This document shows, one piece after another, positions 1,662 through 27,243 of a DNA stretch of 35,589 nt. The notes beneath the pieces were generated by a model that made no database searches, was not told the origin of the DNA, and worked only from the letters and a program-made list of their open reading frames with translations. The stretch is from NCBI GenBank assembly GCA_024695105.1, contig JAILIV010000037.1, forward strand, positions 1-35,589. Reading direction: 5' to 3'. Numbering within the stretch: position 1 is the stretch's first letter; every line of letters starts with the position of its first letter. Made by a program: the position numbers and the translations under genes. The stretch comes from Bacilli bacterium (GTDB lineage Bacteria > Bacillota_I > Bacilli_A > RFN20 > CAG-826).

Positions 1662-2126
1662 ATGGAATCCATTTACGACTACAAAGTGTTGGACATGCAG
1701 GGCAACGAAGTGAGCCTGTCTGATTACAAAGGTAAGGTCTTGCTTATCGTCAATACCGCGACGGGTTGCGGCTTCACGCCCCAATACGAAGGCTTAGAAG
1801 GCCTATATGAGAAATACAAGGAGCAGGGGTTGGAGATACTCGACTTCCCGTGCAATCAGTTCTTCGGACAAGCGCCGGGAACCGATGAGGAGATCCATTC
1901 TTTCTGCACGTTGAAGTACAACGTCGCGTTCAAACAGTTCCACAAGATCGATGTCAACGGCAAAAGCGAGGACCCGCTTTACACGTTCCTGAAAGCGCAG
2001 AAGAAAGGCCGCATCAAATGGAACTTCACCAAGTTCCTCGTCGACCGCGAAGGCAATGTCGTAGCCCGTTTTAGCCCGATGGATAAGCCCGAGAAAATAG
2101 AGCCGCACATCGTAGAATTGCTTTAA
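1662..2126 (+). CDS. gpx: Glutathione peroxidase family thiol peroxidase
   Basis: A 154-residue cytosolic peroxidase that reduces H2O2 or organic hydroperoxides, in bacteria usually with thioredoxin or bacillithiol-type thiols rather than glutathione. The peroxidatic cysteine is C36 in N-T-A-T-G-C-G-F-T-P-Q-Y. The second signature F-P-C-N-Q-F (62-67, with C64 as a possible resolving Cys) and the W-N-F-T-K-F block near residue 130 with its active-site Trp and Asn are present. Length and order match the bacterial GPx/BsaA family. The selenocysteine of some relatives is replaced by Cys. A strong AGGAGG lies 7 bases before the ATG. The gene shares one base with the following ohrR (TAATG), so translation is probably coupled and the pair regulated by OhrR. 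Confidence 0.93.
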   Translation: MESIYDYKVLDMQGNEVSLSDYKGKVLLIVNTATGCGFTPQYEGLEGLYEKYKEQGLEILDFPCNQFFGQAPGTDEEIHSFCTLKYNVAFKQFHKIDVNGKSEDPLYTFLKAQKKGRIKWNFTKFLVDREGNVVARFSPMDKPEKIEPHIVELL

Positions 2127-2554
2127 TGGAAGGCGAAAACAACGAGCTTTTGCTTGCAAATCAGCTTTGTTTCCCGCTTTATGCTGCCTCAAAAGCCTTG
2201 GTGCGCCGTTACGATGAGTTGCTGGCGCCCTTAGGCTTAACCTACACCCAATACATCGTCATGCTGGCGATGTGGGAGTTAGGCGAGGCCACCGTCAACC
2301 AAATCGGGGAGATGGTGTGTTTAGACTCGGGGACGCTTTCGCCACTTTTGAACAAGCTCACCTCCAAAGGGTTTTTGGAAAAGAAAGTCGGCGAAGACAA
2401 GCGGAGCAGGTTGATCGCGCTGACTTCGGAAGGGGAGGCTCTCCGCGAAGAGGCACGTCAAGCCCGGGCGAAGGTAGCGTGTGGGCTGAATCTAAGCGAA
2501 GAAGAGGCCAAGACTCTCTACCGTCTTTGCTACAAGACCCTACAAGGCTGTTAG
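2126..2554 (+). CDS. ohrR: OhrR-type MarR-family peroxide sensor and repressor
   Basis: A 142-residue winged-helix repressor of the MarR family. The N-terminal N-Q-L-C-F-P-L-Y places the redox cysteine at C15, with Y29 and Y40 at the positions of the tyrosines that contact it in Bacillus subtilis OhrR. The DNA-recognition segment L-D-S-G-T-L-S-P-L-L-N-K-L (about residues 66-78) and the wing with D-K-R-S-R follow. Oxidation of C15 by organic hydroperoxides releases the repressor from DNA. One other cysteine lies at about residue 63, one near 112 and two near the C-terminus, so it may act as a 1-Cys or a thiol-exchange sensor. Its usual target, ohr, is not in the window; a glutathione peroxidase occupies that place. 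Confidence 0.92.
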   Translation: MEGENNELLLANQLCFPLYAASKALVRRYDELLAPLGLTYTQYIVMLAMWELGEATVNQIGEMVCLDSGTLSPLLNKLTSKGFLEKKVGEDKRSRLIALTSEGEALREEARQARAKVACGLNLSEEEAKTLYRLCYKTLQGC

Positions 2555-3947: not shown

Positions 3948-4844
3948 ATGGAACAACTTAAACCCAATAACAAAGGCTTTGACACCAGCGAGATGAAAAA
4001 GTTGGTGCAGGAGGAACTGGAGGCGATCCGAAAGGATCCTTTGGTCTACCCCATCCTTTCGGAACAGCTCCATCTGACCACCAAGGAAGCCGAAACCTAT
4101 GTGGGGGCCTTGATGGACCTCCGTGATGATATCCATTATTGCGCCTCCTGCCCTGGGCTAGACAAATGCGATAAGCCCAATCCCCATTTCTGTCTTCGTC
4201 TTGAAAAAGAAGGCAAAACGCTTTTGCGTCACTGCGACCCTTGCCCAAAGATGTTGTCGTTGGCCTCGTTCCGAGACCGCTACATTCTGTGCAGCTTCGA
4301 CGAGGATTGGCGGGATGCGGACCTCCGCGACATTGAACACAGTAAATCTGCGCGTGGCAAAGCCATTGTTGCGATGGTGGAAGTGGCCCAAGGCAAACCC
4401 AAATGGCCGTATTTCATCGGCAACAGTGGTTCGGGCAAGACGTACATGCTCGCATGCCTGGCAAACCATATTACGAAAACCTCTGGGGCGGGTGCCTTCG
4501 TAAACACCGCTTCATTGATGGAAGATCTCAAGGACAAATCCATTAAAAAGAAAGATGCATTCGAGGATCTTTTCTCTCGTCTATGCAAGGCGTCCATTCT
4601 CGTATTGGACGATTTTGGGAACGAATATAAGACGGAATACGTATACACGACCATTCTATTTCCGCTTTTATCCGCCCGTGATAAAGCGGGTTTGCCCACG
4701 GCTTTTGCTTCCGATTTCACCATCTCTGAAATCGTATGGATGTACCGTGGCAAAATTGGCGATCAGCGCGCGAAGCAATTGGAAGGCCTACTGGTTCGTA
4801 GATGTGGCAAAGAGTTCGACGTCAGCGGCGTCGCGATCCATTAA
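3948..4844 (+). CDS. dnaI: Primosomal helicase loader DnaI
   Basis: A 298-residue AAA+ ATPase that loads the replicative helicase. The N-terminal half has the DnaI zinc-binding region (C-A-S-C-P-G at about 65-70, further Cys near 74 and 83, and H-C-D-P-C-P near 97-102). The ATPase half has Walker A G-N-S-G-S-G-K-T-Y-M (about 160-169), Walker B I-L-V-L-D-D-F-G-N-E (about 216-225), and a C-terminal V-R-R-C-G-K-E-F that sits where the family has its arginine-containing sensor region. It lies 2 bases after dnaB, as in other Firmicutes. Its stop codon overlaps the stop of the convergent mutM-coaE gene in a shared TTAA, with no terminator between them. Confidence 0.93.
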   Translation: MEQLKPNNKGFDTSEMKKLVQEELEAIRKDPLVYPILSEQLHLTTKEAETYVGALMDLRDDIHYCASCPGLDKCDKPNPHFCLRLEKEGKTLLRHCDPCPKMLSLASFRDRYILCSFDEDWRDADLRDIEHSKSARGKAIVAMVEVAQGKPKWPYFIGNSGSGKTYMLACLANHITKTSGAGAFVNTASLMEDLKDKSIKKKDAFEDLFSRLCKASILVLDDFGNEYKTEYVYTTILFPLLSARDKAGLPTAFASDFTISEIVWMYRGKIGDQRAKQLEGLLVRRCGKEFDVSGVAIH

Positions 4845-6226
4845 AGGGGCAAGCTTTCCAAGGCTTTGTGTAAATCTTCCAGCGAGCCATCGTTATATAC
4901 GGTGAAGCTTGCTTTTTTCTTCACGAGGGCGACGGGCCAATCCTTATTGATTTTCGCGAGTTCATGCCCCCTCGTTCCTTCCTCATTGATCCTTTGGGCG
5001 AATGCTTCAGGCGAGGTAAGGACAAGGATCGTGGCATCGCATAATTCGTCCATACCCGATTGGAAAAGCAGGGGAACGTCCAAAACGATTTGCTGATTGG
5101 GTTTATGGTTCGCAATGAACTGTTTCGCCTTTCGGATTACGCAGGGGTGGATGATGCCTTCCAGTTTTTTCCGAAGTGCAGGATTCTGGATTAGTTTGGA
5201 ACGGATGTGGCCAGTGTTGGGTTTTCCGTTTTCTAGCGCTTCGCGTCCGAGCAGGGTTTTGATTCTCTTTTGGATCGTTTTGTCCCCATAGGCTTGTTTG
5301 GCGATGACGTCGGCGTCGAATAGGTCATAACCCTTGCTTTCAAAGAAGCGCGAAACGGTGGATTTCCCTGAATGGATTGGACCAGTAACGCCTAAAACAA
5401 ATGGCACGTGCGTTGCTTTTTGGCAACGGGGGCAGAAGGTCGTTCCTCTTCCGTTAGCCAAGATGCGACGCATGGGGAACCCGCATTTTGGACATGGCTG
5501 GTTCTCTTTTCCATAGGCTTGGATGCTTAGTTGAAACATACCGTCGATATCTTTTCCTGGATGGTAGGAACGGATGGTCGAGCCGCTAGCTTCGATCGCC
5601 TTGTTCAAAATGAATTGGGCATTATGGAGTATTTCCTCGGCCTTTTCCGAGATTTCGCATGCGGGGGTCAACGGGTGAAGGGCCGAGGCGAATAAAACCT
5701 CATCGCAATAGATGTTCCCGATTCCCGCGATGACGCTTTGGTCCATTAGGACTTGTTTGATGTAACGTTTGTCTTTGGATAGCCGCTTTTTGAATTGGTC
5801 GGGAGAGTAATCGAATGGTTCAGGCCCCAATTCGCTTAAAGGGGGTGTTTGAAGATAATGCATCTGGTCGCTTAATTGGAGACGGCCGAATTTGCGGACG
5901 TCGTTATAGACAAGCGCTGATCCGTCGGTGAAACGGAAACGGAGGATGTCGTGTTTCCCTTGGGGCTCAGGAGAGGGTTGATAGAAGTATTTGCCTTCCA
6001 TCCGCAGATGACTGACGATGACGAGGCTTTCGCTTAGAAAAAATAGAAGGAACTTCCCCTTGCGTCCAATGCCTTCAATCGTTTTCCCTTGGAGTCTTGT
6101 GACGAACTCATTTGGATCGGATGCGATATTTTTCGGACGGAAAACGTCGATGCCTTCGATGGTTTTGCCTACGCAAACACCTTGGAGGATGCGACGTACG
6201 GTTTCGACTTCAGGGAGTTCGGGCAT
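4841..6226 (-). CDS. mutM-coaE: Fused formamidopyrimidine-DNA glycosylase (MutM) and dephospho-CoA kinase (CoaE)
   Basis: One uninterrupted 461-residue reading frame encodes two enzymes. Residues 1-270 are a complete Fpg/MutM: catalytic P2 and E3 in M-P-E-L-P-E-V-E-T-V, active-site K58, the helix-two-turn-helix Q-S-V-I-A-G-I-G-N-I-Y (163-173), and a C-terminal zinc finger with C245, C248, C265, C268 and R260. After a linker of about six residues comes CoaE (276-461): P-loop G-P-I-H-S-G-K-S-T (282-290), F-D-A-D-V-I-A-K (303-310), and L-D-V-P-L-L-F-Q-S-G (382-391). MutM excises 8-oxoguanine; CoaE makes the last phosphorylation to CoA. The start must be 6226 because Pro must be residue 2. It lies 1 base after the polA stop (TGACATG). 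In Bacillus the genes are adjacent but separate. Confidence 0.95.
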   Translation of the reverse strand: MPELPEVETVRRILQGVCVGKTIEGIDVFRPKNIASDPNEFVTRLQGKTIEGIGRKGKFLLFFLSESLVIVSHLRMEGKYFYQPSPEPQGKHDILRFRFTDGSALVYNDVRKFGRLQLSDQMHYLQTPPLSELGPEPFDYSPDQFKKRLSKDKRYIKQVLMDQSVIAGIGNIYCDEVLFASALHPLTPACEISEKAEEILHNAQFILNKAIEASGSTIRSYHPGKDIDGMFQLSIQAYGKENQPCPKCGFPMRRILANGRGTTFCPRCQKATHVPFVLGVTGPIHSGKSTVSRFFESKGYDLFDADVIAKQAYGDKTIQKRIKTLLGREALENGKPNTGHIRSKLIQNPALRKKLEGIIHPCVIRKAKQFIANHKPNQQIVLDVPLLFQSGMDELCDATILVLTSPEAFAQRINEEGTRGHELAKINKDWPVALVKKKASFTVYNDGSLEDLHKALESLPL

Positions 6227-6227
6227 G

Positions 6228-8840
6228 TCAGTCTTTGGCCTCGTACCAGGTTTTGCCGATGCTTGACTCCACAATCAAGCGCACGGGCAACTCGACGGCT
6301 TCATCCATGATCTTCTCGATTTTGGGCAGCAACTCTTCTTTCTCTTCGCTAGGAATGGCAAAGATCAGTTCGTCGTGAATCTGAAGGACCATTTTGGTCT
6401 TATAGCCTCCATTCCTTAGCATTTCATCAATGCGTAGCATAGCGATTTTGATGAGATCGGCCGCGCTTCCCTGAACGGGAGCATTGAGAGCTTGTCGGCG
6501 CGCGGCCTCACGTTTGGCGTAATTGGGATCGGTGACCCCGGGGAGGTAGCGCCTTCTGCCAAACATCGTGGTCACGTACCCTTTCTTTTCGACGTCGGAA
6601 AGGACGGATTGCAGGTAGGCGTCGACTTCGGGGTAGTGTTGTTTGAAAGATTGGATTAAGCGAATGGCTTCGGCAGGGGTGCCTTCGATCTGTTCCGCGA
6701 GGCCAAAGGGGGTGACGCCATAGATGATGGCGAAGTTCACCGCCTTGGCGCGCCGCCTTTGCAACGGTTGGACCTCTTCCCCTTCGGGAACGCCGAAGAT
6801 CTTCCTCGCGGTTTCGGAGTGGACGTCGCGGTCGGACGAGAACGTCTCGATGTAGGAAGCGCAGTTGGAGAGGGCTGCCAAGATGCGTAGTTCGATTTGC
6901 CCATAGTCAAACGAAGCGATCGAAAGGTTGGGGTCATCGTAAAAGAACGCCTTCCGGATTTGTTTGGACTCGGGGTCGCGGGCGGAGATGTTCTGAAGGT
7001 TCGGGTTGGAGGAAGAAAGGCGGCCCGTGGCGGTTTGGGCTTGGTTAAAGTAGGTATGGATCTTTCCGTCGGAAGAAATGTGGGGGATAAGCCCATCGAT
7101 ATAAGTGGAGACGAGCTTGGCGTATTTGCGGTATTCCAAGATGAGCGGGACGATGGGGTGTTTGTCTTCGATGGAATGCAAGACTTCAACCGAGGTCCCA
7201 AGCATCTTTCCACCGGCGAGATTGAGTTTTTGGAACAACAATTCGCCCACTTGCTTGGGGGATGCGACGTTGAACTTGAAACCCGCAAGGTCATGGATTT
7301 GTTTCTCGAGCGAATCGCGTTTGGCGCGGAATTCCTCCCCGATCGCGGAAAGGGTTCCTTTGTCTAAGGGAAAGCCTTCCAATTCCATTTTGGTGAGGAC
7401 TTTGGCGAGGGGCATCTCAATGTCGTTAAAGAGTTCAAGGGCCTGGTTTTGCGTTAACGAAAGGAGGGCTTTTTCCCGCAGTTTCAATGCAAAATGCGCC
7501 ATTTTCCCGCAAATCTCAGGATTATTTCGGCTGAATAGATCCATTTGGATCGCCCCCGGGGCGATGTCCACGCCGAAAGAGGAATAGACGAGTTCCGGGG
7601 TATCGGTGAGGGAAGAGTCCAGAAGGTAAGCGCATAAGAGCAAATCAAAATCGATGCCTTCGACCTTTAGGCCCAGCCGATGGAAGCAATACAGGATGGC
7701 TTTGGAATCGTAGACGCATTTGGCGACGTTTGGATCGGAAAGCAGACGAAGGAAGGTAGGGTCCTTTACCGCGTCTTGCGTTTCGAGGTAGTAGATGGAT
7801 TTGCCATCGGAGAGGGCGAAACCAAGAATCTCCTCCTCGTGGTATAGCTTGGAAGGCATATCCACGGTCAAGCCGATACGATTCGCCTCGATGGGTGGCA
7901 AGGAGGCCACCTGCTCCACAAGAGGAACGGGTTCCTGCGCCCCTTGTTTTAACGAAGCGGGAAGGCGGGAGAGGAATTGCTTCAACTCGTATTTCTGACA
8001 GAAGTCGTTGACCTTGTTGAACGCGTAACCTTCGTAGGCGGTTTGTTCCAACGTAAACGGAAGCTTGGCGTCGATGAGGATGGTGGCCAGACGGTAGCAG
8101 GTGCGTCCTAGTTCTTCTCCCGCGATGATGTTTTCGGCCATTTTTCCTTTGATCTTCCCGTCTTTGGCGGCCTGTACGATCGCGTCGAAGGTTCCGAATT
8201 CGGTCAGGAGTTTGACCGCGGTCTTCTCTCCGATGCCCGGGATGCCAGGCAGATTGTCCGAAGCATCGCCACGAAGGCCTTTGTAATCGATCATCTGCGC
8301 GGGGGTGAAGCCGAACTCCTCCGCCATCGAAGTGGGGGTGAGGCGATCGATGTCGGACATGCCTTTGCGGATGAGGCAAACGGTGATGCGGTCGTCGATG
8401 AGTTGAAGGTAATCTTTGTCCGACGTATAAACGTCGACTTGGTAGCCTTGCGCGGCCGCTTGCTTGGCCATGGAGCCACAGATGTCATCGGCCTCGATTC
8501 CCGCCTCTTCGTAATGGATGATGTCCAAACTGTCGAGCAATTCCCGCGAAATGGGGAATTGGGGGATGAGCTCTTCGGGCGCGGGTTTTCGGTTGGCCTT
8601 GTAGGCGTCGAATTCCTGCTTGCGGAAGGTGTGGGAGTCCGCATCGAACCCCACAAAGATCGAGTCGCCTTTTTCCATGCCTTGTAGCACTTTGGCGAGC
8701 ATGTTGGAAAGGGCGAAGATGGCATTGGTGGGGATGCCCGACTTTGTGCGCATGATGGAGGAGGGGTCACCGTAAAACGTGGCGTAAAAGGCGCGGAACA
8801 ACAGCGAGTTCCCATCGATGACGATCATTCTCTTTCCCAT
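6228..8840 (-). CDS. polA: DNA polymerase I
   Basis: An 870-residue family A polymerase for Okazaki fragment processing and repair synthesis. The 5' nuclease domain (about 1-290) is intact, with D-G-N-S-L-L-F-R-A-F, the acidic A-G-I-E-A-D-D, T-S-D-K-D and G-D-A-S-D-N motifs, and the helix-hairpin-helix G-I-P-G-I-G-E-K-T-A. The middle 3'-5' exonuclease fold has lost its DxE motif (L-T-V-D-M-P near residue 325) and is probably inactive, as in Bacillus Pol I. The polymerase domain is complete: motif A D-Y-G-Q-I-E-L-R (about 643), motif B R-x-x-x-K-x-V-N-F-x-x-x-Y-G (about 695-708), motif C Q-I-H-D-E-L (about 820). AAGGAGG lies 9 bases before the ATG. It sits in the dnaE-polA-mutM-coaE operon, 13 bases after dnaE. 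Confidence 0.97.
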   Translation of the reverse strand: MGKRMIVIDGNSLLFRAFYATFYGDPSSIMRTKSGIPTNAIFALSNMLAKVLQGMEKGDSIFVGFDADSHTFRKQEFDAYKANRKPAPEELIPQFPISRELLDSLDIIHYEEAGIEADDICGSMAKQAAAQGYQVDVYTSDKDYLQLIDDRITVCLIRKGMSDIDRLTPTSMAEEFGFTPAQMIDYKGLRGDASDNLPGIPGIGEKTAVKLLTEFGTFDAIVQAAKDGKIKGKMAENIIAGEELGRTCYRLATILIDAKLPFTLEQTAYEGYAFNKVNDFCQKYELKQFLSRLPASLKQGAQEPVPLVEQVASLPPIEANRIGLTVDMPSKLYHEEEILGFALSDGKSIYYLETQDAVKDPTFLRLLSDPNVAKCVYDSKAILYCFHRLGLKVEGIDFDLLLCAYLLDSSLTDTPELVYSSFGVDIAPGAIQMDLFSRNNPEICGKMAHFALKLREKALLSLTQNQALELFNDIEMPLAKVLTKMELEGFPLDKGTLSAIGEEFRAKRDSLEKQIHDLAGFKFNVASPKQVGELLFQKLNLAGGKMLGTSVEVLHSIEDKHPIVPLILEYRKYAKLVSTYIDGLIPHISSDGKIHTYFNQAQTATGRLSSSNPNLQNISARDPESKQIRKAFFYDDPNLSIASFDYGQIELRILAALSNCASYIETFSSDRDVHSETARKIFGVPEGEEVQPLQRRRAKAVNFAIIYGVTPFGLAEQIEGTPAEAIRLIQSFKQHYPEVDAYLQSVLSDVEKKGYVTTMFGRRRYLPGVTDPNYAKREAARRQALNAPVQGSAADLIKIAMLRIDEMLRNGGYKTKMVLQIHDELIFAIPSEEKEELLPKIEKIMDEAVELPVRLIVESSIGKTWYEAKD

Positions 8841-11937: not shown

Positions 11938-13047
11938 TTAGTATTCCCCGGCTAAGATTCGGATTTCCGGGTCTTGCCTGAGACGCTTTGAGGCAAAGTG
12001 AAAGGCGTCTTGGTCTTTCTTTACCGCGGCAATGACACAGTCTCGGTCGTCTCGGATTTCTTCGGGGCTTTCGCCCAGCATAAAGCCGTTTTGGGAAATG
12101 GCGATTATCGCGAGTTCCGCATCCTTGCGAAGTTCATCTGGAATGTAGTCATAGACAGAAGCATTGGACGAAAGGAGTTCCTTGAGGAAATCCTTATCTG
12201 CAAAGATTTCGTCTGGTACGTACTTCAAGGCTTCGCCACATTCCCGCGCCGCCTCACGGATAATGTCTTTGTCCTTCCGCAGTTCGGGGCCGGCGTATTT
12301 TAGGGGGGATTCGCTGCCCATCGGGTGATGCGAAGCGTGTTGGACCGCCAGGAGAACGATCTCACGGTCGTTGCGTAATCTTTCGGAAGCGTATTCCAAC
12401 ACGCGCCCACATGTAGCGACGGCGGATAAAACGATCTCTCGGTCATCGCCATAGTTCATTTTCACGAACGCGGGGAGCTCATACTCTTCACTGCCTAGTT
12501 TCTTTTCCATGCCGAAAGCCAAAAGGACACCGTTTTTCGTGATGAGCGAGAGCATGAAATCGCGGTTTTGCAGAAGCCGTGCGGAGACGAACTTGATGGC
12601 GTTGGGATTGGATGGCAAGGCGATGGAAACCATTTTCTCATCATCGCGGAACCGTTCGTTGGCGTCTTTGAGGGCATAACCATTGTCCTCCAACGCAAGG
12701 CGTACGATTTCGGGGTCGTCGCGAAGTTTTTCGGGGAAACGGTGGAAGAAGTAGCCGATGCCACTAGGCGAGGCAAGAACGAAGGAGCGGTCCGCGAGGA
12801 ACTGTTCGTGGAGGTCGCGCCAAGCGTTAGGGTCCGCCTTCACCAAGGACAACGCGATGTCCCGGTTGCGTTTCACGTCCTCATCCATCAAGCGGTAAAC
12901 GCTTTTCCCGACGTGATCGAGGATGGCTAACTCCATGAACTTAGGGTCAGAAAGAAGTTCCAACGGAAAATAGGCGGGCAGGTCTTCCCGGGAGTCGAAA
13001 GATTCCTCGTGGAAAATCTTGAGATAACGTGGGTAATTGATGGCCAT
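11938..13047 (-). CDS. DUF4116 repeat protein
   Basis: About 369 residues built from tandem helical repeats of roughly 45-50 residues. Each has the form L-R-x-D-x-E-I-V-x-x-A-V followed by G-x-A-L-x-Y-A-x-x-x. Clear copies include R-D-D-P-E-I-V-R-L-A-L, G-D-D-R-E-I-V-L-S-A-V, R-N-D-R-E-I-V-L-L-A-V, R-K-D-K-D-I-I-R-E-A and R-Q-D-P-E-I-R-I-L-A. This is the DUF4116 family, often expanded in gut bacteria and protists, with no known function and presumably a protein-binding solenoid. There is no signal peptide. I chose the ATG at 13047 (M-A-I-N-Y-P-R-Y) because AGGAGC lies 7 bases upstream; the frame extends 15 codons further without support. The gene is divergent from the hydrolase. Confidence 0.85.
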   Translation of the reverse strand: MAINYPRYLKIFHEESFDSREDLPAYFPLELLSDPKFMELAILDHVGKSVYRLMDEDVKRNRDIALSLVKADPNAWRDLHEQFLADRSFVLASPSGIGYFFHRFPEKLRDDPEIVRLALEDNGYALKDANERFRDDEKMVSIALPSNPNAIKFVSARLLQNRDFMLSLITKNGVLLAFGMEKKLGSEEYELPAFVKMNYGDDREIVLSAVATCGRVLEYASERLRNDREIVLLAVQHASHHPMGSESPLKYAGPELRKDKDIIREAARECGEALKYVPDEIFADKDFLKELLSSNASVYDYIPDELRKDAELAIIAISQNGFMLGESPEEIRDDRDCVIAAVKKDQDAFHFASKRLRQDPEIRILAGEY

Positions 13048-13063
13048 GGTGGTAGCTCCTGTG

Positions 13064-13084
13064 TTGGGTAAATGATATACCCAA
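13064..13084. promoter_or_regulatory. Inverted repeat in the divergent DUF4116/hydrolase promoter region
   Basis: TTGGGTA (13064-13070), seven bases, then TACCCAA (13078-13084) form a perfect 7+7 inverted repeat between two divergent genes. On the minus strand it includes TATATC as a plausible -10 for the DUF4116 gene. The same 10-mer TTGGGTATAT forms the -10 region of the glycosyltransferase gene (15505-15514, minus). Confidence 0.4.
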
Positions 13085-13108
13085 TCGCACACCTTTTGGG
13101 TCTTGGAT

Positions 13109-17894: not shown

Positions 17895-17926
17895 TACGTG
17901 CAGAAGGGCTTTCCCCTCACTTTTTG

Positions 17927-20245
17927 ATGAGCGAGTACCATTTCGATTACAAAATCGTGTCGCGGACCGGATATCGCGAAAAGCGGATCAAGCTTTTCTT
18001 CGCCCGTTCCTACGATACGCTTGGGATGCAGATCCAGGTTTGCGTCCCCGAGGAGATCTACCGCAATTTCCGGAGCATTCGGCTCCGCTATGCCCATAAC
18101 GCTTCGGCGCGTCCGGCGACGTTGCTCTCTTCCCTTGGACAAGAGGCGCTGAACCTAATCACCGAGGAACGGCTTCCCATCTTCCGCGACCGGTCCGACC
18201 CCGATGCCACATTCGTCTCCGACATCAACGGCTTTTACATCAAGGCAAGGGAAGGGTCGTTTGCCTGCACGGGAGAGCTTGGCTTCTGCAAAAGCCTCGA
18301 TCCCGACGCGGTGCCTCTAGAAGAGGACATCTACGAATTCGTGGTCAACTTCGCCCGGAAGGAGACCATCCATTACAAGATCCGCGAAATCAACCGCGAT
18401 GGTACGAACCATGACCGCTTGGAGATCAGCGTGCTTTACCCCCGTCTATATGACGACATTGAGCTTCGGCTATATTCCAAAGCCACGACCAAACCGATTT
18501 TGCGCGGGGATTTCGATTCTTCCAAAGAAGTCCCGTTAAAACGCAAGTTGACGTTACGGAAGTTCCGACGCGACGAATCGCTTTCCATCTTCGTCGTGGC
18601 CCCGGGGGAAGACGTCTTCACGCACAATTACCGGTTGGGCTTTGCGGATGGCGAAAAACTGGAGCCGTTTTATTTCCTTTCCGACGATTCGGAGTTCACC
18701 AGCGAAGACCAAACCCGCCGGCAACAAGAAAAGGAAAACGAGGAAAGGCGGAGCAAACAGACGCCCGTCGTGCTTTGCCCCTATTGTGGGAACCCCGTCT
18801 CCCCGGTGGCCCTGAAGGCAAGGAAGGGCGTGTGGGGGTGCGATGGGGAACACTTTTATAAAAACGTTCCCGCCAGTCGGTTCCGCATCGCTCCCAAAAA
18901 AACCATCGTCTGCAACCAAAAGCCCCATTTGCTTTCCCATGGGGCCATTCCTTTGGAACATCCGATATTGCCCGTAAACTACGGCGAGCATCCGGTGGCC
19001 AACCTCGTGGTGGCCGGGGCGCCCAAATGCGGGAAGACCACGTTTTTGGCTTCCTTGTTCGACGTGCGCAAGGACGAAGACATCTACGTTTCCCATCCCG
19101 CGATCCTTCAGGAAATCCTGCGTCACTTCCTCCCGAAACGGAAAAACCGCTCGGTGCGCGAAGTGAAGATGGACGGCGCCGTTTTGCCCGCCTCAGGCCC
19201 TATTGGGTTGGACGGCAGTTACGAGGAGGCGCGTTCGAAAAGCCTCACCTCGTCTTCTCATCCAGGCCATAAGGTGGGCGTCAAGGGCCGTTACGCCTTT
19301 GACGTGAACAGCAATTTCGAATCCAACACACAAGCCTTGGACGAGGCGGTGCTTTCGTTCAACCCCATCGGCTTCGAATTAGGTGAAGCGGGGCACGCTT
19401 ATTTCTATGACGTCCCCGGCGAGATGTTCGACATGGATAACCCTAGTCCCGTCCGTTGCCTCGACGTGGCCAATGGGCTGATCGTCTTGGTCGACGGGGA
19501 TCCCGAAGTGGGGATCGACGAGGATTTGGAAGTGGGGCGCATCCTTTCCAGAGCCTTGGCCGAAACGAATCTGGACCCCGAACTGCGGAAGGCGTTTTTG
19601 GAATACATGCAGGAAGACGATCCCGACAAGAAACGGGACCTCGCCAAAGGGTTTATGCCTTTGCTTGGGGGATTGGACCCCTCCATCCGACAAGACCTCG
19701 AGGAATACAAAGACCATCTGTTGCTTCCTCCTACCCCCGGCACGAAGAAGTCCCCGTTACGCAAGTTGGGAAAGACGTTCGCGAACTTAAGGAAGCTACG
19801 TACGAACGGGGAGCCTCTTTCTTCCCTTCCCATCGCCATCGTCTTTTCCAAACTCGACGCCCGCCTATATGGGCATGAGGGGTCTAGGGCCGACGCGGAC
19901 GCTTTTTGCTTCGACGCCAATACGCACATTACCCATGAGAACATGGTGCCTCTTTATCCCGCCTCGCGCCGATATCGCCATTCCGAATTGGAGCGCCACA
20001 TCAATAACGCCAGCTACGAAATCGAGGAGTATTTGCGCAGTTGGCCCGACGGGGCATCCGTCATCGATAACATCCGGGCCGAATGCGGGAACGTGAAGTT
20101 CTTCGCTTGCTCCGCACTCGGTGGGGCGGACGTGTTGCGCCTAGGCTCCACCACCAGCGTGAAGCGCATCATGTACCGGCCACGGCCTATTCGCATGGAG
20201 CTGCCGATCGTCTGGCTTTTCTACCAGTTGGGGGTCATTTCCTGA
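17927..20245 (+). CDS. Zinc-ribbon P-loop GTPase, double-GTPase (DO-GTPase)-like
   Basis: 772 residues in three parts. Residues 1-270 are a beta-rich region I do not recognise. A zinc ribbon follows with C284, C287, C305 and H309. The GTPase domain has G1 G-A-P-K-C-G-K-T-T (364-372, K370), G3 D-V-P-G-E (495-499), G4 S-K-L-D (641-644) and G5 S-A-L near 728; a long insertion with acidic and basic helices separates G3 from G4. The C-terminal M-E-L-P-I-V-W-L-F is typical of the double-GTPase proteins described in NTP-dependent conflict systems. It overlaps the next gene by one base (TGATG). No Shine-Dalgarno is visible; the ATG at 17927 is preferred to the TTG just before it. The GTPase call is firm; the subfamily is tentative. 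Confidence 0.75.
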   Translation: MSEYHFDYKIVSRTGYREKRIKLFFARSYDTLGMQIQVCVPEEIYRNFRSIRLRYAHNASARPATLLSSLGQEALNLITEERLPIFRDRSDPDATFVSDINGFYIKAREGSFACTGELGFCKSLDPDAVPLEEDIYEFVVNFARKETIHYKIREINRDGTNHDRLEISVLYPRLYDDIELRLYSKATTKPILRGDFDSSKEVPLKRKLTLRKFRRDESLSIFVVAPGEDVFTHNYRLGFADGEKLEPFYFLSDDSEFTSEDQTRRQQEKENEERRSKQTPVVLCPYCGNPVSPVALKARKGVWGCDGEHFYKNVPASRFRIAPKKTIVCNQKPHLLSHGAIPLEHPILPVNYGEHPVANLVVAGAPKCGKTTFLASLFDVRKDEDIYVSHPAILQEILRHFLPKRKNRSVREVKMDGAVLPASGPIGLDGSYEEARSKSLTSSSHPGHKVGVKGRYAFDVNSNFESNTQALDEAVLSFNPIGFELGEAGHAYFYDVPGEMFDMDNPSPVRCLDVANGLIVLVDGDPEVGIDEDLEVGRILSRALAETNLDPELRKAFLEYMQEDDPDKKRDLAKGFMPLLGGLDPSIRQDLEEYKDHLLLPPTPGTKKSPLRKLGKTFANLRKLRTNGEPLSSLPIAIVFSKLDARLYGHEGSRADADAFCFDANTHITHENMVPLYPASRRYRHSELERHINNASYEIEEYLRSWPDGASVIDNIRAECGNVKFFACSALGGADVLRLGSTTSVKRIMYRPRPIRMELPIVWLFYQLGVIS

Positions 20246-22899
20246 TGGATCGCGTGTGGGAAGGGATATTCGCTTACGCCGACGGGGATGGACTCTGCCG
20301 TTATGGCGAAGGGCTTTCGTCGGAGCAAATCGCGCTTTTGAAGGAGCCTGGCGTCGGGCGATACATCGGGCTAAGCGACTTTGACGCGGCGAAAGGCTTC
20401 TATTACCGCGACGAAGGGGAAACCTACCTCACGGGTGAAAAAGGCGAGCCCTCATCGGAATATAGTGGCAAGGGATATGCCCATCGCATTTTGCCCCAAG
20501 GACACGTTTTTGAGGTGCACGTGTTACGTGATTCGGTCAAAAACGACCCATCCTTTACCCGCGGCACGAAAGAGATGGACCATTTCCTTTTGTGCGAGGA
20601 AGCCCCGTCGTTGCCCGTTTCCGCCTTATTCCGTTCCGGTCCATTGACGAAGGAAAACGATTTGCCCAAATGGGGGTTTGACCAAAGCGAAGGGGCGAAG
20701 CTTCCGGTTTTTAGCGAAGATGCCTTTGCCGTCCCGCCGCTTCCGTTTGCTGCGTATGCGAAAGACAAAGACGCATTTTTGGATTTTGCCGTCGCATTCA
20801 TCCAAGCCCAGGAAAAGAAGCTCCCCTTGCTTTGCCTTTACGAAGTGGGGGAAGAAGAGACGTTCGCCTCTTTCCTATTCCGTTTCCTTGACCTCTTCCC
20901 TTCTTCCTTTGGCCTAGCGTTGCCCTTTTCCACCTTGGCCAGTGGGAACGATGGCTCATCCGTTCTTGGCGTGCCCGTGGGGAAGGGGAATGTGGATAAA
21001 GGGCTGTTGCGCCGCATCTATGGGGAAGTCCATGCCCTACGTTTCCCGCTTATGGGGCAAGACGCGCCTTTGGATGAGCCCATTTTGGAGTTGATCCGCC
21101 ATATCCTCTCTTCGGAAGAGGCGTTTGTCTCCTATCGTTCCTCCATTTTTGGCGAGGAGGCCGAAGTGAGGGATGTCGCGTCGCTACGGACGTTTGCCTC
21201 GGGGTATCTATTTGCCAAGAGCCTTTCTGGAAAAGAGGACGAGGATGTGTTTGAGAAAGCGCGTCGGCAAGAGGCGTTCCTCGACGGATTGATCGCGGAG
21301 CCCGAGCGCCTCATCGGTTTGCCCGCGTCCACGCTAAAGGACGTTCGTGAGAACATGAAGACCCTCAACGTCGCCGCCGACCCGGACTTCGGTTCTTTGG
21401 ACCTCTCCACGAGGATACGTTTGCTCCAAAAGGCGGTCTCCGTGCACCAAAGTGTCTACGATGCGAGTTTGCGCCTCGCTTCGTTACGCCACCTCGATGA
21501 GTTCGTTTTTCCGCAAAACCTGGAGCAAATCCCCGACGATTCGCCGTATTTGGAGATGCTTTCCGCGTTATTGCGGACCGATGAGGAATTCCTTTCCGGC
21601 ACCTATTACCCGCACGTTTACCTTGATGCCTCCTTGGGCAAGAGGGCGTACCGCCTTTGCGAGGCGGGGGTGAAGGAAGGGTCGTGGGAATTCGCCGAGG
21701 GATATGTGGCGTTTCTTTCCACGCGCCTGCCCACCTCAAAGCCGGCGCTTCTTCGCTTTGGCGAACTTCTTTCCGAAGGCAGTTCCGTCGACAACCTTTT
21801 CCGTGTCTTATTCGAAACCGGTGGGTCGAAGGAAGAAGAGACGGTGTCCATCGCCTGCGAGATGCTCGCTTCAGCCCAAACCCAAAACGGCAAGGCCATC
21901 GAGGAGGCGTTGCTAAAACGCTATGCCGGAGAAGGGGTGCACCGCCTGCTTTCTTTGCTGGAGAAGGCGCCGGTCGGTCGATGGAAAGACGAATTGCAAA
22001 AACGGGCGCTGGAAGAATACCTTGGCGTGCTTTCCTCACCGGAGGTTGCATCCTCCGCGGTATCGTTGGCCCATTTGGCCGCTTTGGAAAAGACGAAGTG
22101 GGGCGTTCAAGCGGAGGATATCCTTGATCCGTGGATGGCCGATATCCGGCTTCTTTCTTCCGCAAAAGCGTTAAGCCTCGAAGACTTTATCGCCTTTGGC
22201 GCTTCCGCCCTGCAGTCGTGCATCCTCTATTTGGAGAAGAAGGGGCACATTAAGGAAAAAGACGCATTGCTTTTGGTGTATGAGGACCTAAAGCAAAAGG
22301 AGGAGGAGTCGGGTAAGGCGCAGCGTAACCTTGACGGCTTAGAGAGCCAAAGGCTCCGCTTTTGCTGCGACATGATGCGCACCCTCCCCCGAAAGGACAT
22401 CCGCGCCATATTGGCCAAGCATCTTGGCAAAGAAGGGTTCCTCGACGCATATAAAAAGGAAAAAGGCAGCCAAGACGAGCGGTTGGACGCCCTTATCCTC
22501 CGCGTGGAAAACGGATCGCTTCCTTTGTCGGACATGGACCGCTGGTGGGAATTCGGGAAGGACGTGTATGAGGCAAAAGGCAAAAAGCGCTTCAACCTCG
22601 CGAACGTTTCCTACGCTTTCCGCAACCTATTCCTTTCCGTCGTGGTGGCCCTCATCGCCTTCGCTGGATCGGCTTTCGTCGGATCGCTTTGCTACGTGTT
22701 TTGGATGAACAACACCTATTACCTTTTGTTCCTGGGCATCGCCCTTTTGACCGCTTTGGCGGGCTTTGGGGTGACTTACGCGAATTGCTTTGACGCCAAG
22801 TCGCGCTTCCGTATCATCTGGGCCTCTGCGTTAGAGACCGCGGGGATCGGAGTGCTCTTGCTTGGCTTGTTCATGGGGATCTTCATGTTCATCCCCTAG
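20245..22899 (+). CDS. Membrane-anchored GTPase-associated protein (GAP1-like)
   Basis: 884 residues, partner of the preceding GTPase, whose stop codon it overlaps. The N-terminal 150 residues resemble the GAP1-N domain: an opening F-A-Y-A-D-G-D-G, the S-E-Y-S-G-K-G-Y-A-H-R-I-L block, and D-H-F-L-L. A second block, F-G-L-A-L-P-F-S-T-L-A-S-G (about 220-235), recalls the GAP1-M strand that follows. Residues 300-780 are helical, Leu/Glu-rich and repeat-like. The last 95 residues carry three membrane helices (about 792-820, 822-845 and 862-883), so the protein is anchored with its bulk probably in the cytoplasm. The frame opens upstream at 20083, but the start must be the ATG at 20245. A role in the GTPase cycle is inferred from the described family pairing and has not been shown here. 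Confidence 0.65.
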   Translation: MDRVWEGIFAYADGDGLCRYGEGLSSEQIALLKEPGVGRYIGLSDFDAAKGFYYRDEGETYLTGEKGEPSSEYSGKGYAHRILPQGHVFEVHVLRDSVKNDPSFTRGTKEMDHFLLCEEAPSLPVSALFRSGPLTKENDLPKWGFDQSEGAKLPVFSEDAFAVPPLPFAAYAKDKDAFLDFAVAFIQAQEKKLPLLCLYEVGEEETFASFLFRFLDLFPSSFGLALPFSTLASGNDGSSVLGVPVGKGNVDKGLLRRIYGEVHALRFPLMGQDAPLDEPILELIRHILSSEEAFVSYRSSIFGEEAEVRDVASLRTFASGYLFAKSLSGKEDEDVFEKARRQEAFLDGLIAEPERLIGLPASTLKDVRENMKTLNVAADPDFGSLDLSTRIRLLQKAVSVHQSVYDASLRLASLRHLDEFVFPQNLEQIPDDSPYLEMLSALLRTDEEFLSGTYYPHVYLDASLGKRAYRLCEAGVKEGSWEFAEGYVAFLSTRLPTSKPALLRFGELLSEGSSVDNLFRVLFETGGSKEEETVSIACEMLASAQTQNGKAIEEALLKRYAGEGVHRLLSLLEKAPVGRWKDELQKRALEEYLGVLSSPEVASSAVSLAHLAALEKTKWGVQAEDILDPWMADIRLLSSAKALSLEDFIAFGASALQSCILYLEKKGHIKEKDALLLVYEDLKQKEEESGKAQRNLDGLESQRLRFCCDMMRTLPRKDIRAILAKHLGKEGFLDAYKKEKGSQDERLDALILRVENGSLPLSDMDRWWEFGKDVYEAKGKKRFNLANVSYAFRNLFLSVVVALIAFAGSAFVGSLCYVFWMNNTYYLLFLGIALLTALAGFGVTYANCFDAKSRFRIIWASALETAGIGVLLLGLFMGIFMFIP

Positions 22900-22914
22900 A
22901 AAGGAAGGAATGCC

Positions 22915-25900
22915 ATGGCCAAACCCGTTACGTTTCGACACCACACCGGATTGATTGCCTTTTTGGTTTTGGCCGTCGTGGCTTCCGCCGCCGGGGTAGG
23001 GGCGGGCGTTTTGACCAAAACCTACTTCCGCACCGACCGCGTCATTCGCGATGGCCAAGAGGCACTGACCCGCGCCGGGGAAGACTTTTCCTTTGACGGG
23101 AACCTAAGCGAAGAGCAACGCTCTTACGATTGGATCAAGGACAAAAAGTACGAAGCCAGCGTCTATGGTTACGACCAGACGCGCCAATCCTATTTTCCCA
23201 TCGACGGTTTGGCGGAAGTCAACGAGGAAGGCGATGGCTTACGCATCCTTGGAGTGGGCAAGGGCATGGTCCGCTTGACCAACACCGTGTTCTCCGATTT
23301 GCGTGTGGAAATCCCTTTTGACTCAAAGTTCGACTCCGAAGACACGGCGGTGCTACTGAAGTCTTCGGGCTACGACATCTATGATGACGGGTTTGTCTTA
23401 AAAGACGAGTTCCACAAAGTGGATCATTTCGACGCCGACGCCTCTTTCTCGCGTCTGACCTTCGCGGATTACCATTACTTCCCCAACCTAAGAGCCTTGA
23501 GCATCCAAAGCTCCACCTTCGCCCTTCCCACCGACATCGAGAACATGCCGGGTCAACTCCACGTCTATGTCCCGAAGGCCAGCTACCTCGACTATCGTCT
23601 TTCCCCGTATTGGGCAAGCCGCGCCGAATCGATCTTCGTTTTGAAGCAAAACAAGAACAACGTGTCCGTGATTTTGAACAAAAACGGCGGCGAGTTCCAA
23701 CATGATGACGGCAAGGAATTCCTTTCCCTGGAATTACCTAGGGGAGGCACCATCGACTTCGATGGCAAATACCCCATCCACCGCATCGGCGCGAATTTCC
23801 AAGGATGGAAAGATGACGTGGTGGGCAATCCTTACGATTCCTCCACACCCATCGAAGGCGACATCCATCTCTCCGCGACGTGGGATCTGATCCGTTACCA
23901 AATCCGTTTCCATTACGATAACGCCGACGGGCAAACCCCCGAAACCTTAGTCACTACCTATGCGTTTTGGGGAGATACCATCCAAACCCTAGGCGGCCAA
24001 GGGGAGACCCATGGGGATTTCGCTTTGATCGGCTGGAGCACGGACAAGACTTCGCGCGTCCCCGACTTTGATTTGGGTGAGACGTTGCCCGGCTCGTTCC
24101 TTTACCCCCAAAAGGAGGAATACGACCTCTACGCTTTCTGGGTTTATCCGGAGACCGAGGTGTTATTGATGGCGAAGGAACCCCAATCCCTTGGCCCTAT
24201 CCGTTATAACGGGGCAAAGGAAATCCGTTACAAATCGATCCCGATAGGGGATGGGCGCTTCGCCGGATACAGTTTCGATTCTTCCGCCACAAAGGTGGAC
24301 GTCGAAGAGGGCCAAACCCTGCAAAACGTGTACACGCGTAGCGTATTTGACGACCCAACCCTTCGCCTTTACCCCGTGTTCGCGAAGGAATACTTCACGA
24401 TGACCTACGAGAGTTTGGGGAAAGTGGTCGCCACCGACGAAGGCTGCGCCGACTTTAACCCCATTGCCTTGCCTCGTCCCGGAAGCCATGGATTGACCGA
24501 CGCCTCGCTTACCAAAGAGGGGCACCGCTTCGTCGGATGGTTGGATCCGGAAACGGACGTGGTGTACGCAAAAGAAGAAGATGAAGGGCAATATCCGGAT
24601 TATCTCCACGTCCTTTATTCGGAGGATTTGACGTTTGCTTCCTTCGGCGGGGAAGGGTTAGAGGAGGTTCGGTTGCAAGCCTATTACCTTCCCAACCGTT
24701 TCGAAGTGTCCTTCTCCGGAAGTCTCGATCCCACCGAGACCGCGTTTGATTCGCTTGAGGCGACGTATGGGTGGGATGCCCCGTTATCGGGGGAGATGGG
24801 CAAACGCGGCCACGTCCTTTCCGCCTTGAGCACTCCCAAGGGAACCGATGTGTTAGGCCAAGTGGACATGAATGACGACCGATTCCTTAGCGAAGGCATC
24901 CAAACGCTTTATCGGGAGATCCGGGACGACAAGGGATGGAGCGACAACGGCTTCCAAAGCGATTCGGCCTCCATCGTCTTGAGCCCCATATGGATCCGCG
25001 AGCATTACGAAATCACCTTTGACATGGCGGAGAACCAAGGGAAGATCCCTGGGCCAACCGCCCAAACCATCGAATACGGGGAGAAGGTTTCCGAACCATC
25101 CTTCCCCGTGATTGGCCAAGTCTATAACGGCTATACCTTCGGTGGATGGAACCTGGGCGAAGAGCCTTTCGATTTCGAGACCATTTTGGCTTCCGATGCG
25201 GTTTTGCGGGCGGTTTGGTACCAAAACGACATCCCCGTGAGCTTCGTTTTGAACCCTGGGGATAGTTATGCCGCCTTTGACGCGTCCAACGCTTCCTTGT
25301 TCATCACGCAGCTTGTGAAGACGGGGGAAAGCCCCATCGTGGCGGAAGACCCTGCCGCCGACGGGTATGCCTTCCTGGGCTGGTACTTAGACCCCGCCTA
25401 TGGGGAGGAGGACAAAGTCGACGCATTATCGTCTTTGTCCATCCACGAGCCCACGACGCTGTACGCCAAATGGGAGGCCAAGACGTTCACCGTGACCTAT
25501 CATGCGGAAGGACATGGCGACGTGGCGCAGCAATCCTGGAGCCAGGAACTCACCTATCCTAGCCATGCCTTATCCTCCCTTCCTTCCAAGGTGGGGGAAC
25601 CGGACTACTCCTTTGGGGGATGGTTCCGTTACCAAGGAGAGGCCAAGGTCCTTTACGACCCCAGCCAATACGTGACGGAAGACCTGGAGCTTTACGCCGT
25701 TTGGAACCAAGCGACCTACGAGATTCGCGTACGGGATTATTCGGGCCCAGGCACGGCGACCCAAGTGCTTTCCGGATACCATTACCAAGAAGAAGTGGCC
25801 ATGCCCGACCTTCCCAAGCCCGAAGGCTATCATCTGATTGGGTTCTTGGAAGCGCAAAGCGGAGAGGAAGTCGGATTCCCTTATTCCATGCCCGCCAAGC

Positions 25901-27243
25901 ACGTGGATCTCACCGCCGTTTGGGAACTTGATGCCCACGTGGTCACGTTCCATTATGGCGATGGTCGCGACGACGTGGTGAAGGAGACCGTTTACGGCAG
26001 TTTGGTTTCCGCGCCTAGCGGCACCGTTTCCGGGCGAACTTTCGTTGGGTGGTACCTTGAGCCGACGTTCCAGACCAAATTCGATCCTTTGGCCGACGTG
26101 GTGAAGGCGGATTTGGACCTCTATGCCCGTTGGACCGTCAAAGTGTCTTTCAGCGACAACAAAAACGAGCATAGTTCGACCGTGGCCAACGTGACGGTGG
26201 ATTATGGCTCGAAGATCGCCTCCTATCCGACTTCCCCCACGGAATATGGGTTCACTTTCATGGGTTGGTACCGCGTATCGGGCTCCTCGCTGATAGCGCT
26301 GGATAAGTCTTATGTCTTCAAAGAAGACACGCAAGTACGGGCGAGATGGTCTTTGGCGACGTTCTACGTCAACTTCGACCTCGATGGCGGCAGTGGCGCG
26401 ACCCGCTCGGGATATTACGAATACAAATCCCTCGTCCAAAACCCCGGCACCCCGACGAAGAGCGGTTGCGACTTCCTGGGTTGGTATAACGGCGATTCGA
26501 AATGGAATTTCTCCAGTGACCGCGTCACCATGGCCATGACCTTGAAGGCCCATTGGGATTCGGGCTGCTTGGTCAACGGCACGCAAGTGCTGATGGCGGA
26601 TGGCTCCAGCAAAGCCGTCGAAGACCTCGTCCCCGGGGACGTGGTGATGACCTTTGACCATGCGCAGGGGCAATACGTCTCTGGGGCGATATTGGCCAAC
26701 GCGGTGACCCACGCCCGTCTGACCGAGGTGGCCTACCTTCGCTTTGACGACGACACCGAAGTCGGGGTGGTGGGGAGACACGCCTTCTATGACCTCGACC
26801 TAAGGACCTACGTTTACTTTAATAAGGAAAACGCGGCGGATTACGTGGGGCATCGCTTCGCCGCCTACGGAGGCTTCGTCACCTTGGTTGAAACCCGGAT
26901 TCAAGAAGACGAAGTGGGGTATAGCTCCCCCGTCGTCGCGGGCACCTTCAACTTCCTCGCCAACGGGTTATTAAGCGTCGCGGATGGGATCGAGGCCTTC
27001 GTCCATTGCTTCGAATATGGCGAGGACATGCGCTTTGACGAAGAAGCCATGGCCCGCGACATCGCCCTATATGGCTTGGTCGCCTACGAAGAGGTCGCCG
27101 AATACTATCCTTATGACCTTTATGAGGCCTTCAACGTCCGCTACCTCAACGTGATCTTGGGCAAGGGGCTGACCACCTTTGAGGAAATCCAAGTCCTCTA
27201 TGCGGTTTATTACGGGCTTTTGCAGCAACGTTTGAACGCGTAA
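22915..27243 (+). CDS. Giant InlB-repeat surface protein with C-terminal Hint domain
   Basis: 1442 residues. An N-terminal hydrophobic segment (about 12-34) with no visible signal-peptidase motif suggests a membrane anchor with the rest outside. Residues 40-240 include an Ig-like-looking stretch and a leucine-rich cap with L-S-I-Q-S-S-T-F-A-L-P. About twelve Listeria-Bacteroides (InlB B) modules follow, ending in variants of L-Y-A-x-W (about 320 to 1215). C1218 then begins a Hint domain: C-L-V-N-G-T-Q-V-L-M, V-P-G-D-V-V, H1289, and N-F-L-A-N-G-L-L (1346-1353). The last 85 residues (F-E-Y at about 1362, G-K-G-L-T-T-F-E-E-I near 1418) form a separate small domain. Hint domains cut or splice the polypeptide. 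The function is unknown; it could be an adhesin, a self-released effector or a reporter of the GTPase system. GGAAGG precedes the ATG. Confidence 0.8.
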   Translation: MAKPVTFRHHTGLIAFLVLAVVASAAGVGAGVLTKTYFRTDRVIRDGQEALTRAGEDFSFDGNLSEEQRSYDWIKDKKYEASVYGYDQTRQSYFPIDGLAEVNEEGDGLRILGVGKGMVRLTNTVFSDLRVEIPFDSKFDSEDTAVLLKSSGYDIYDDGFVLKDEFHKVDHFDADASFSRLTFADYHYFPNLRALSIQSSTFALPTDIENMPGQLHVYVPKASYLDYRLSPYWASRAESIFVLKQNKNNVSVILNKNGGEFQHDDGKEFLSLELPRGGTIDFDGKYPIHRIGANFQGWKDDVVGNPYDSSTPIEGDIHLSATWDLIRYQIRFHYDNADGQTPETLVTTYAFWGDTIQTLGGQGETHGDFALIGWSTDKTSRVPDFDLGETLPGSFLYPQKEEYDLYAFWVYPETEVLLMAKEPQSLGPIRYNGAKEIRYKSIPIGDGRFAGYSFDSSATKVDVEEGQTLQNVYTRSVFDDPTLRLYPVFAKEYFTMTYESLGKVVATDEGCADFNPIALPRPGSHGLTDASLTKEGHRFVGWLDPETDVVYAKEEDEGQYPDYLHVLYSEDLTFASFGGEGLEEVRLQAYYLPNRFEVSFSGSLDPTETAFDSLEATYGWDAPLSGEMGKRGHVLSALSTPKGTDVLGQVDMNDDRFLSEGIQTLYREIRDDKGWSDNGFQSDSASIVLSPIWIREHYEITFDMAENQGKIPGPTAQTIEYGEKVSEPSFPVIGQVYNGYTFGGWNLGEEPFDFETILASDAVLRAVWYQNDIPVSFVLNPGDSYAAFDASNASLFITQLVKTGESPIVAEDPAADGYAFLGWYLDPAYGEEDKVDALSSLSIHEPTTLYAKWEAKTFTVTYHAEGHGDVAQQSWSQELTYPSHALSSLPSKVGEPDYSFGGWFRYQGEAKVLYDPSQYVTEDLELYAVWNQATYEIRVRDYSGPGTATQVLSGYHYQEEVAMPDLPKPEGYHLIGFLEAQSGEEVGFPYSMPAKHVDLTAVWELDAHVVTFHYGDGRDDVVKETVYGSLVSAPSGTVSGRTFVGWYLEPTFQTKFDPLADVVKADLDLYARWTVKVSFSDNKNEHSSTVANVTVDYGSKIASYPTSPTEYGFTFMGWYRVSGSSLIALDKSYVFKEDTQVRARWSLATFYVNFDLDGGSGATRSGYYEYKSLVQNPGTPTKSGCDFLGWYNGDSKWNFSSDRVTMAMTLKAHWDSGCLVNGTQVLMADGSSKAVEDLVPGDVVMTFDHAQGQYVSGAILANAVTHARLTEVAYLRFDDDTEVGVVGRHAFYDLDLRTYVYFNKENAADYVGHRFAAYGGFVTLVETRIQEDEVGYSSPVVAGTFNFLANGLLSVADGIEAFVHCFEYGEDMRFDEEAMARDIALYGLVAYEEVAEYYPYDLYEAFNVRYLNVILGKGLTTFEEIQVLYAVYYGLLQQRLNA
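23659..26562 (+). repeat. Array of about twelve InlB B-type (Listeria-Bacteroides) protein modules
   Basis: Degenerate modules of about 65-90 residues, each with a hydrophobic strand, F-x-G-W, an acidic or Asp-rich turn and a final L-x-A-x-W (or a variant). Endings include L-S-A-T-W, L-Y-A-F-W, L-S-P-I-W, L-R-A-V-W, L-Y-A-K-W, L-Y-A-V-W, L-T-A-V-W, L-Y-A-R-W, V-R-A-R-W and L-K-A-H-W. The repeats are visible in protein only; the DNA copies have diverged. Confidence 0.85.
26566..26985 (+). other. Hint (hedgehog/intein) autoprocessing domain, C1218 to about residue 1357
   Basis: This begins with C-L-V-N-G-T-Q-V at the exact end of the last InlB module. It contains S-S-K-A-V-E-D-L-V-P-G-D-V-V, the histidine in G-R-H-A-F-Y-D (H1289), and the closing N-F-L-A-N-G-L-L. 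No C-terminal His-Asn followed by Ser/Thr/Cys is present, so cleavage is more likely than splicing. Confidence 0.75.

Follow-up and report, generated by a model that had tools for sequence, protein, structure and literature searches.

The nucleophile of the DNA glycosylase Fpg (MutM) is its own N-terminal proline, and dephospho-CoA kinase (CoaE) completes CoA synthesis with a step that is normally essential. Under oxidative stress MutM excises 8-oxoguanine, and CoA guards thiols by protein CoAlation. Ordinary MutM (TIGR00577, structure 1r2y) ends just after its zinc finger. For CoaE (TIGR00152, PF01121; structures 1uf9 and 2grj), a two-domain protein is known from mycobacteria, in which a C-terminal UPF0157 (GrpB) domain of unknown function is needed for folding (PMC2765170). 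A further described relationship concerns the same pair of genes: a GeneTack cluster named 'DNA glycosylase / Dephospho-CoA kinase' has a conserved frame transition, for which the authors state that E. coli reporter data allow both frameshifting and translational coupling (PMC3711429). No report of a fused MutM-CoaE protein was found in the literature searched, a scope that excludes most subscription journals and automatic database annotations.

The window analyzed here (the whole stretch of 35,589 nucleotides, contig JAILIV010000037.1 of the Bacilli assembly GCA_024695105.1) contains such a fused gene, flanked as follows:

6228..8840, minus strand: polA (NF004397, 866.8 bits versus a cut-off of 720), directly upstream of the fusion
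4841..6226, minus strand: fused mutM-coaE gene, 461 codons plus stop (frame, Pfam, NCBIfam, relatives)
5417..6226, minus strand: MutM/Fpg half, residues 1-270 (Pfam/NCBIfam, invariant residues, structure match)
5402..5416, minus strand: junction, residues 271-275 (no ATG; one GTG without a Shine-Dalgarno-like stretch)
4841..5401, minus strand: CoaE half, residues 276-461 plus stop (PF01121, TIGR00152, phmmer)
3948..4844, plus strand: dnaI-like loader, convergent with the fusion

The fused gene is a single minus-strand frame of 461 amino acids (ATG at 6224-6226, stop at 4841-4843), and the plus strand of the same interval is full of stops. A sequence-only reading had placed MutM and CoaE in one reading frame at 4841-6226; the coordinates are correct, with the gene on the minus strand, and frame, domains and relatives bear out the joint frame. 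A longer version of the frame opens at TTG 6274. We prefer the ATG at 6226, because Fpg requires an N-terminal proline, which only this start provides. Pfam assigns, all above cut-off, Fapy_DNA_glyco (residues 1-116), H2TH (133-220), zf-FPG_IleRS (243-270) and CoaE (277-450; PF01121, 95.4 versus a cut-off of 27), and NCBIfam identifies both fpg (TIGR00577, 296.7 bits versus 203.3) and CoaE (TIGR00152, 93.0 bits versus 65.55).

Compared with the described systems, the MutM half has the domains, catalytic residues and zinc finger of MutM/Fpg, but the chain continues into CoaE where ordinary MutM ends. The second half has the whole kinase, the P-loop and the catalytic Asp of CoaE, but is N-terminally joined and carries Gln389 and Glu416 in place of a conserved Glu and Arg. 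CoaE thus shares one chain with another domain, as in the mycobacterial CoaE-UPF0157 protein (PMC2765170), but here the extra domain is an N-terminal DNA glycosylase; Pfam detects no UPF0157 domain at the C-terminus of the fusion, where the chain ends with CoaE. The GeneTack pair consists of separate overlapping genes (PMC3711429), whereas the fusion in the window is fixed in the DNA.

The MutM half retains the N-terminal Pro2-Glu3 (MPELPE), K58, R260 and a zinc finger formed by C245, C248, C265 and C268. Across 107 fused proteins the catalytic, DNA-contact and zinc residues are invariant or nearly so, and P2, E3, E6, K58, R111, N171, R260, C245, C265 and C268 are strictly invariant. The structural model of the fusion matches MutM (1r2y) over 268 residues with Z 36.9 and an rmsd of 1.5; the list of fold comparisons is filled by the MutM half, and CoaE is assigned from sequence profiles and phmmer. 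From its conserved residues, we infer that this half works as an 8-oxoguanine/Fapy DNA glycosylase-AP lyase. The assembly also encodes a MutY-like protein, which scores just below the cut-off.

The CoaE half contains a P-loop (GPIHSGKS, 282-289), Asp306 and the lid residue Arg412, and phmmer matches it to the solved dephospho-CoA kinases 1uf9 and 2grj. In mycobacterial CoaE, Lys14, Asp32 and Arg140 are critical by mutagenesis; Arg140, whose loss abolished activity, was called strictly conserved (PMC3019153). The equivalents in the window are K288, D306 and R412, the first two of which are invariant in the 107 fused proteins. Other positions have changed. The window carries Gln389 where separate CoaEs have Glu (57 of 57) and Glu416 where they have a second lid Arg (56 of 57); the Glu after the PLL motif and the second lid Arg are local observations rather than curated criteria of the CoaE family. 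The sequence-only reading had called both enzymes complete by their motifs, which is firm for MutM and, given Gln389 and Glu416, less firm for CoaE. In what follows, f1 denotes the family of the window and f2, f3 and so on other families. The Glu389 equivalent is kept in 8 of 24 f1 proteins, the His360 equivalent in none of seven from f2, and the Arg140 equivalent in two of seven from f2; in all six from f3 (L149, L151, L117 and L142 among them) the latter is His or Asn. At least one of the two lid arginines is kept in all sampled proteins except those of f26. Some of these changes are also present in f4, the unfused sister family, and the erosion therefore appears to be a trait of the wider clade and not simply a result of fusion.

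Within f1 the mean identity is 30% for CoaE versus 47% for MutM, and CoaE is also the faster partner in most groups with separate genes. Among usable close pairs, dN/dS (estimated simply by NG86, leaving out a pair with G520 that looked misaligned) is about 0.02-0.33 for MutM and 0.06-0.48 for CoaE. Both values lie below 0.5, and both halves are under purifying selection. The assembly contains one CoaE match, in an assembly 85% complete from which a second coaE could be missing, and CoaD is present. On the strength of its motifs and profile matches, the CoaE half is taken here as a putatively active kinase.

The two halves are joined with hardly any linker. The zinc finger has its last cysteine at residue 268, the first CoaE strand starts in the model at 276 and the P-loop at 282, such that 13 residues separate the last zinc Cys from the P-loop Gly; the linker of about six residues right after the zinc finger, as originally proposed, is about as short as was stated. 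The junction length is 13 in nearly all f1 proteins and 10 in f2 and f3. An ATG with a Shine-Dalgarno-like stretch occurs in only one of 112 fused junctions, and this survey leaves an internal start for CoaE unsupported. AlphaFold predicts the window fusion with pLDDT 93.9 and pTM 0.89 (about 95 pLDDT in the junction block) and a protein from a separate fused lineage with pLDDT 92.5 and pTM 0.88, the alignment for the latter also holding members of f1-f3. The high pTM for two domains suggests that these have a defined mutual orientation and form one rigid body. A sequence search of solved structures returned no chain spanning both halves.

The fusion is old and extends well beyond the genome of the window, across a broad set of uncultured bacteria from the gut. 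In the genus, 27 of 31 genomes have both halves in one frame (38-56% identity), the other four giving partial or split matches; in f1, 184 of 196 genomes match, from 35 of 35 genera. Those of the remaining 12 genomes that were tested lack both halves, and their number is about the rate expected from incomplete bins; likewise, co-loss of both halves in some near-complete genomes, considered as a possible true loss, is roughly what missing contigs would give. Within the same order, f2, f3 and most of f8 are fused, and f4, f5 and f6 are separate. Outside the order but within the class, fused genes occur in f12, f26, parts of f16, f25, f27 and f28, and one f19 genome. A non-exhaustive scan of named genomes (80 loci kept) gave fused frames only in uncultured Bacilli-type MAGs; the phylum search drew genomes of the same class only and concerns this class alone.

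This distribution also decides whether the fusion might be an artefact, with a sequencing or binning error having removed the mutM stop. The window does come from a fragmented draft (88 contigs, 85% complete), but the fused frame is common to independent assemblies of more than 40 genera. A sequencing error near the mutM stop is ruled out by the independent genus and family assemblies, and, because genomes of the genus share the whole fused frame, the chance that the fusion is accidental or artefactual is negligible. The sequence-only reading had proposed a search for the same fusion in related genomes, which found it across the genus, the family and further families; a lost-stop error, or separate genes in all close relatives, had been named as what would speak against it, and the close relatives are fused.

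Among intact loci of f1-f3 no convincing split was found. The CoaE-only piece of G254 is cut by a contig end and is no true split. The frame break in G020/L038 is probably an assembly frameshift, because no start codon for a separate coaE was found in the 60 nt upstream of the match. Stops inside the MutM half were observed in G277/L143 (codon 8), G184/L206 (codon 97, within a short tandem duplication) and G520/L258 (codon 80); G277 and G520 are labelled fused in the tree described below despite these stops.

The fusion is real, clade-wide and recurrent. In a tree of 123 rows based on concatenated MutM and CoaE, at least 13 changes between the fused and the separate state are required, and well-supported branches alone force at least eight; the tree was built by a quick method and has long branches, and its counts do not tell gains from losses. 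The families f1, f2 and f3 form one clade (support 99) that is fused throughout and includes one f12 row, probably a contamination. G564 has two fused copies, one of which groups with f3 and is therefore probably a contamination. In some separate relatives mutM and coaE overlap by a few to some 30 bases; in others they share a frame interrupted by just one stop, 1-16 nt before the ATG of coaE. With such neighbours one substitution or small indel suffices for fusion, and the recurrence is probably owed to mutM and coaE being next-door neighbours. The suggestion that a neighbour fusion arose by loss of a stop codon fits the relatives in which one in-frame stop is followed within a few bases by the ATG of coaE.

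The other flank of mutM behaves differently. The TGA stop of polA is separated from the fusion ATG by 1 nt, and polA lies upstream in 116 of 119 fused loci, often with a gap of 1-14 nt, but no polA-mutM fusion was found in any locus examined. Because MutM attacks with the proline at its N-terminus, it has to come first in any fusion: coaE at its C-terminus is tolerated, whereas polA at its N-terminus is not, because Pro2 is needed. The invariance of Pro2 and the lack of polA fusions agree with this constraint on direction. On the opposite side, the palindrome TTAA at 4841-4844 serves as stop for both the dnaI-like gene, on the plus strand, and the fusion, on the minus strand; many Bacilli have dnaB-dnaI downstream in the same orientation, whereas the arrangement in the window is convergent. 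Elsewhere in the window, a glutathione-peroxidase-like gene is followed by a MarR-type regulator starting on its last base (1662-2554, plus strand), possibly a peroxide-response pair. A 384-aa protein with several DUF4116 repeats is encoded at 11938-13092 (minus strand), and three consecutive large ORFs (773, 938 and 1442 aa) occupy 17924-27243 (plus strand), two without a Pfam match and the third with List_Bact (Flg_new) repeats.

We consider it likely that the protein is a bifunctional fusion that arose by neutral stop loss between neighbours and was kept by essentiality. Both activities would then come from one 52 kDa chain translated from a single polA-coupled ATG, with the MutM C-terminus leading by almost no linker into the one kinase of the CoaE family that was found in the assembly; we infer that both halves are catalytically active and that CoaE is not also produced as a separate protein. 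The adjacent Bacilli genes would have been fused once in the ancestor of f1-f3 and separately elsewhere, by loss of the mutM stop where both lay in the same frame and by a small indel where they did not, and the fusion would persist mainly because an essential enzyme, once tied to a neighbour, is not easily separated from it. Selection for a functional link, in which the cell would benefit under oxidative stress from making the two enzymes 1:1 or from holding them in one rigid body, would also be consistent with repeated independent fusion and with the lack of convincing splits in intact f1-f3 loci, but we judge it rather unlikely, as adjacent genes with overlapping ends can readily fuse again and again even when nothing selects for it. 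The constant junction length and the high pTM in two lineages point the same way, but a short linker will accept few indels regardless of what it does, and AlphaFold may predict short linkers as too ordered. In B. subtilis lacking YtkD, MutM and MutY the CoaE protein is 9.5-fold higher, and the authors of that study tie CoA to oxidative defence (PMC10968225); this rise, however, may have come about indirectly, through the disruption of mutM next to coaE. The earlier proposal that the gene joins base-excision repair to CoA synthesis holds for the protein as one chain; a functional coupling of the two would be a further, putative step.

It is improbable that the CoaE half of f1-f3 is losing or has changed its role, to become a nucleotide-binding appendage of MutM with CoA being finished otherwise or taken up. 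The erosion of the Arg140, Glu389 and His360 equivalents, which are near-invariant in separate CoaEs, and the faster divergence of CoaE in f1 would fit such a change. However, the P-loop Lys and Asp306 are invariant, a lid Arg is retained outside f26, the half is under purifying selection without a second CoaE found in the assembly, f4 shares some of the changes without being fused, and CoaE outpaces MutM in most separate groups as well. We likewise give little credence to the idea that the kinase half has been re-tuned at its lid arginines and substrate-site residues, several times in evolution, such that binding of ATP or dephospho-CoA modulates the glycosylase, or DNA modulates the kinase. 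If true, the re-tuned body would physically connect CoA state with the repair of oxidative DNA damage.

The fusion has consequences for the organisms concerned: in these bacteria neither mutM nor coaE can be lost or disrupted without the other. Having arisen repeatedly and remained stable across more than 40 genera, it offers a clean natural test of neutral ratchet versus selection in fusions of operon neighbours. The eroded kinase lid provides a test of how far CoaE can do without parts of its active site, and the protein itself is ready material for studying a possible interaction between CoA metabolism and 8-oxoguanine repair.
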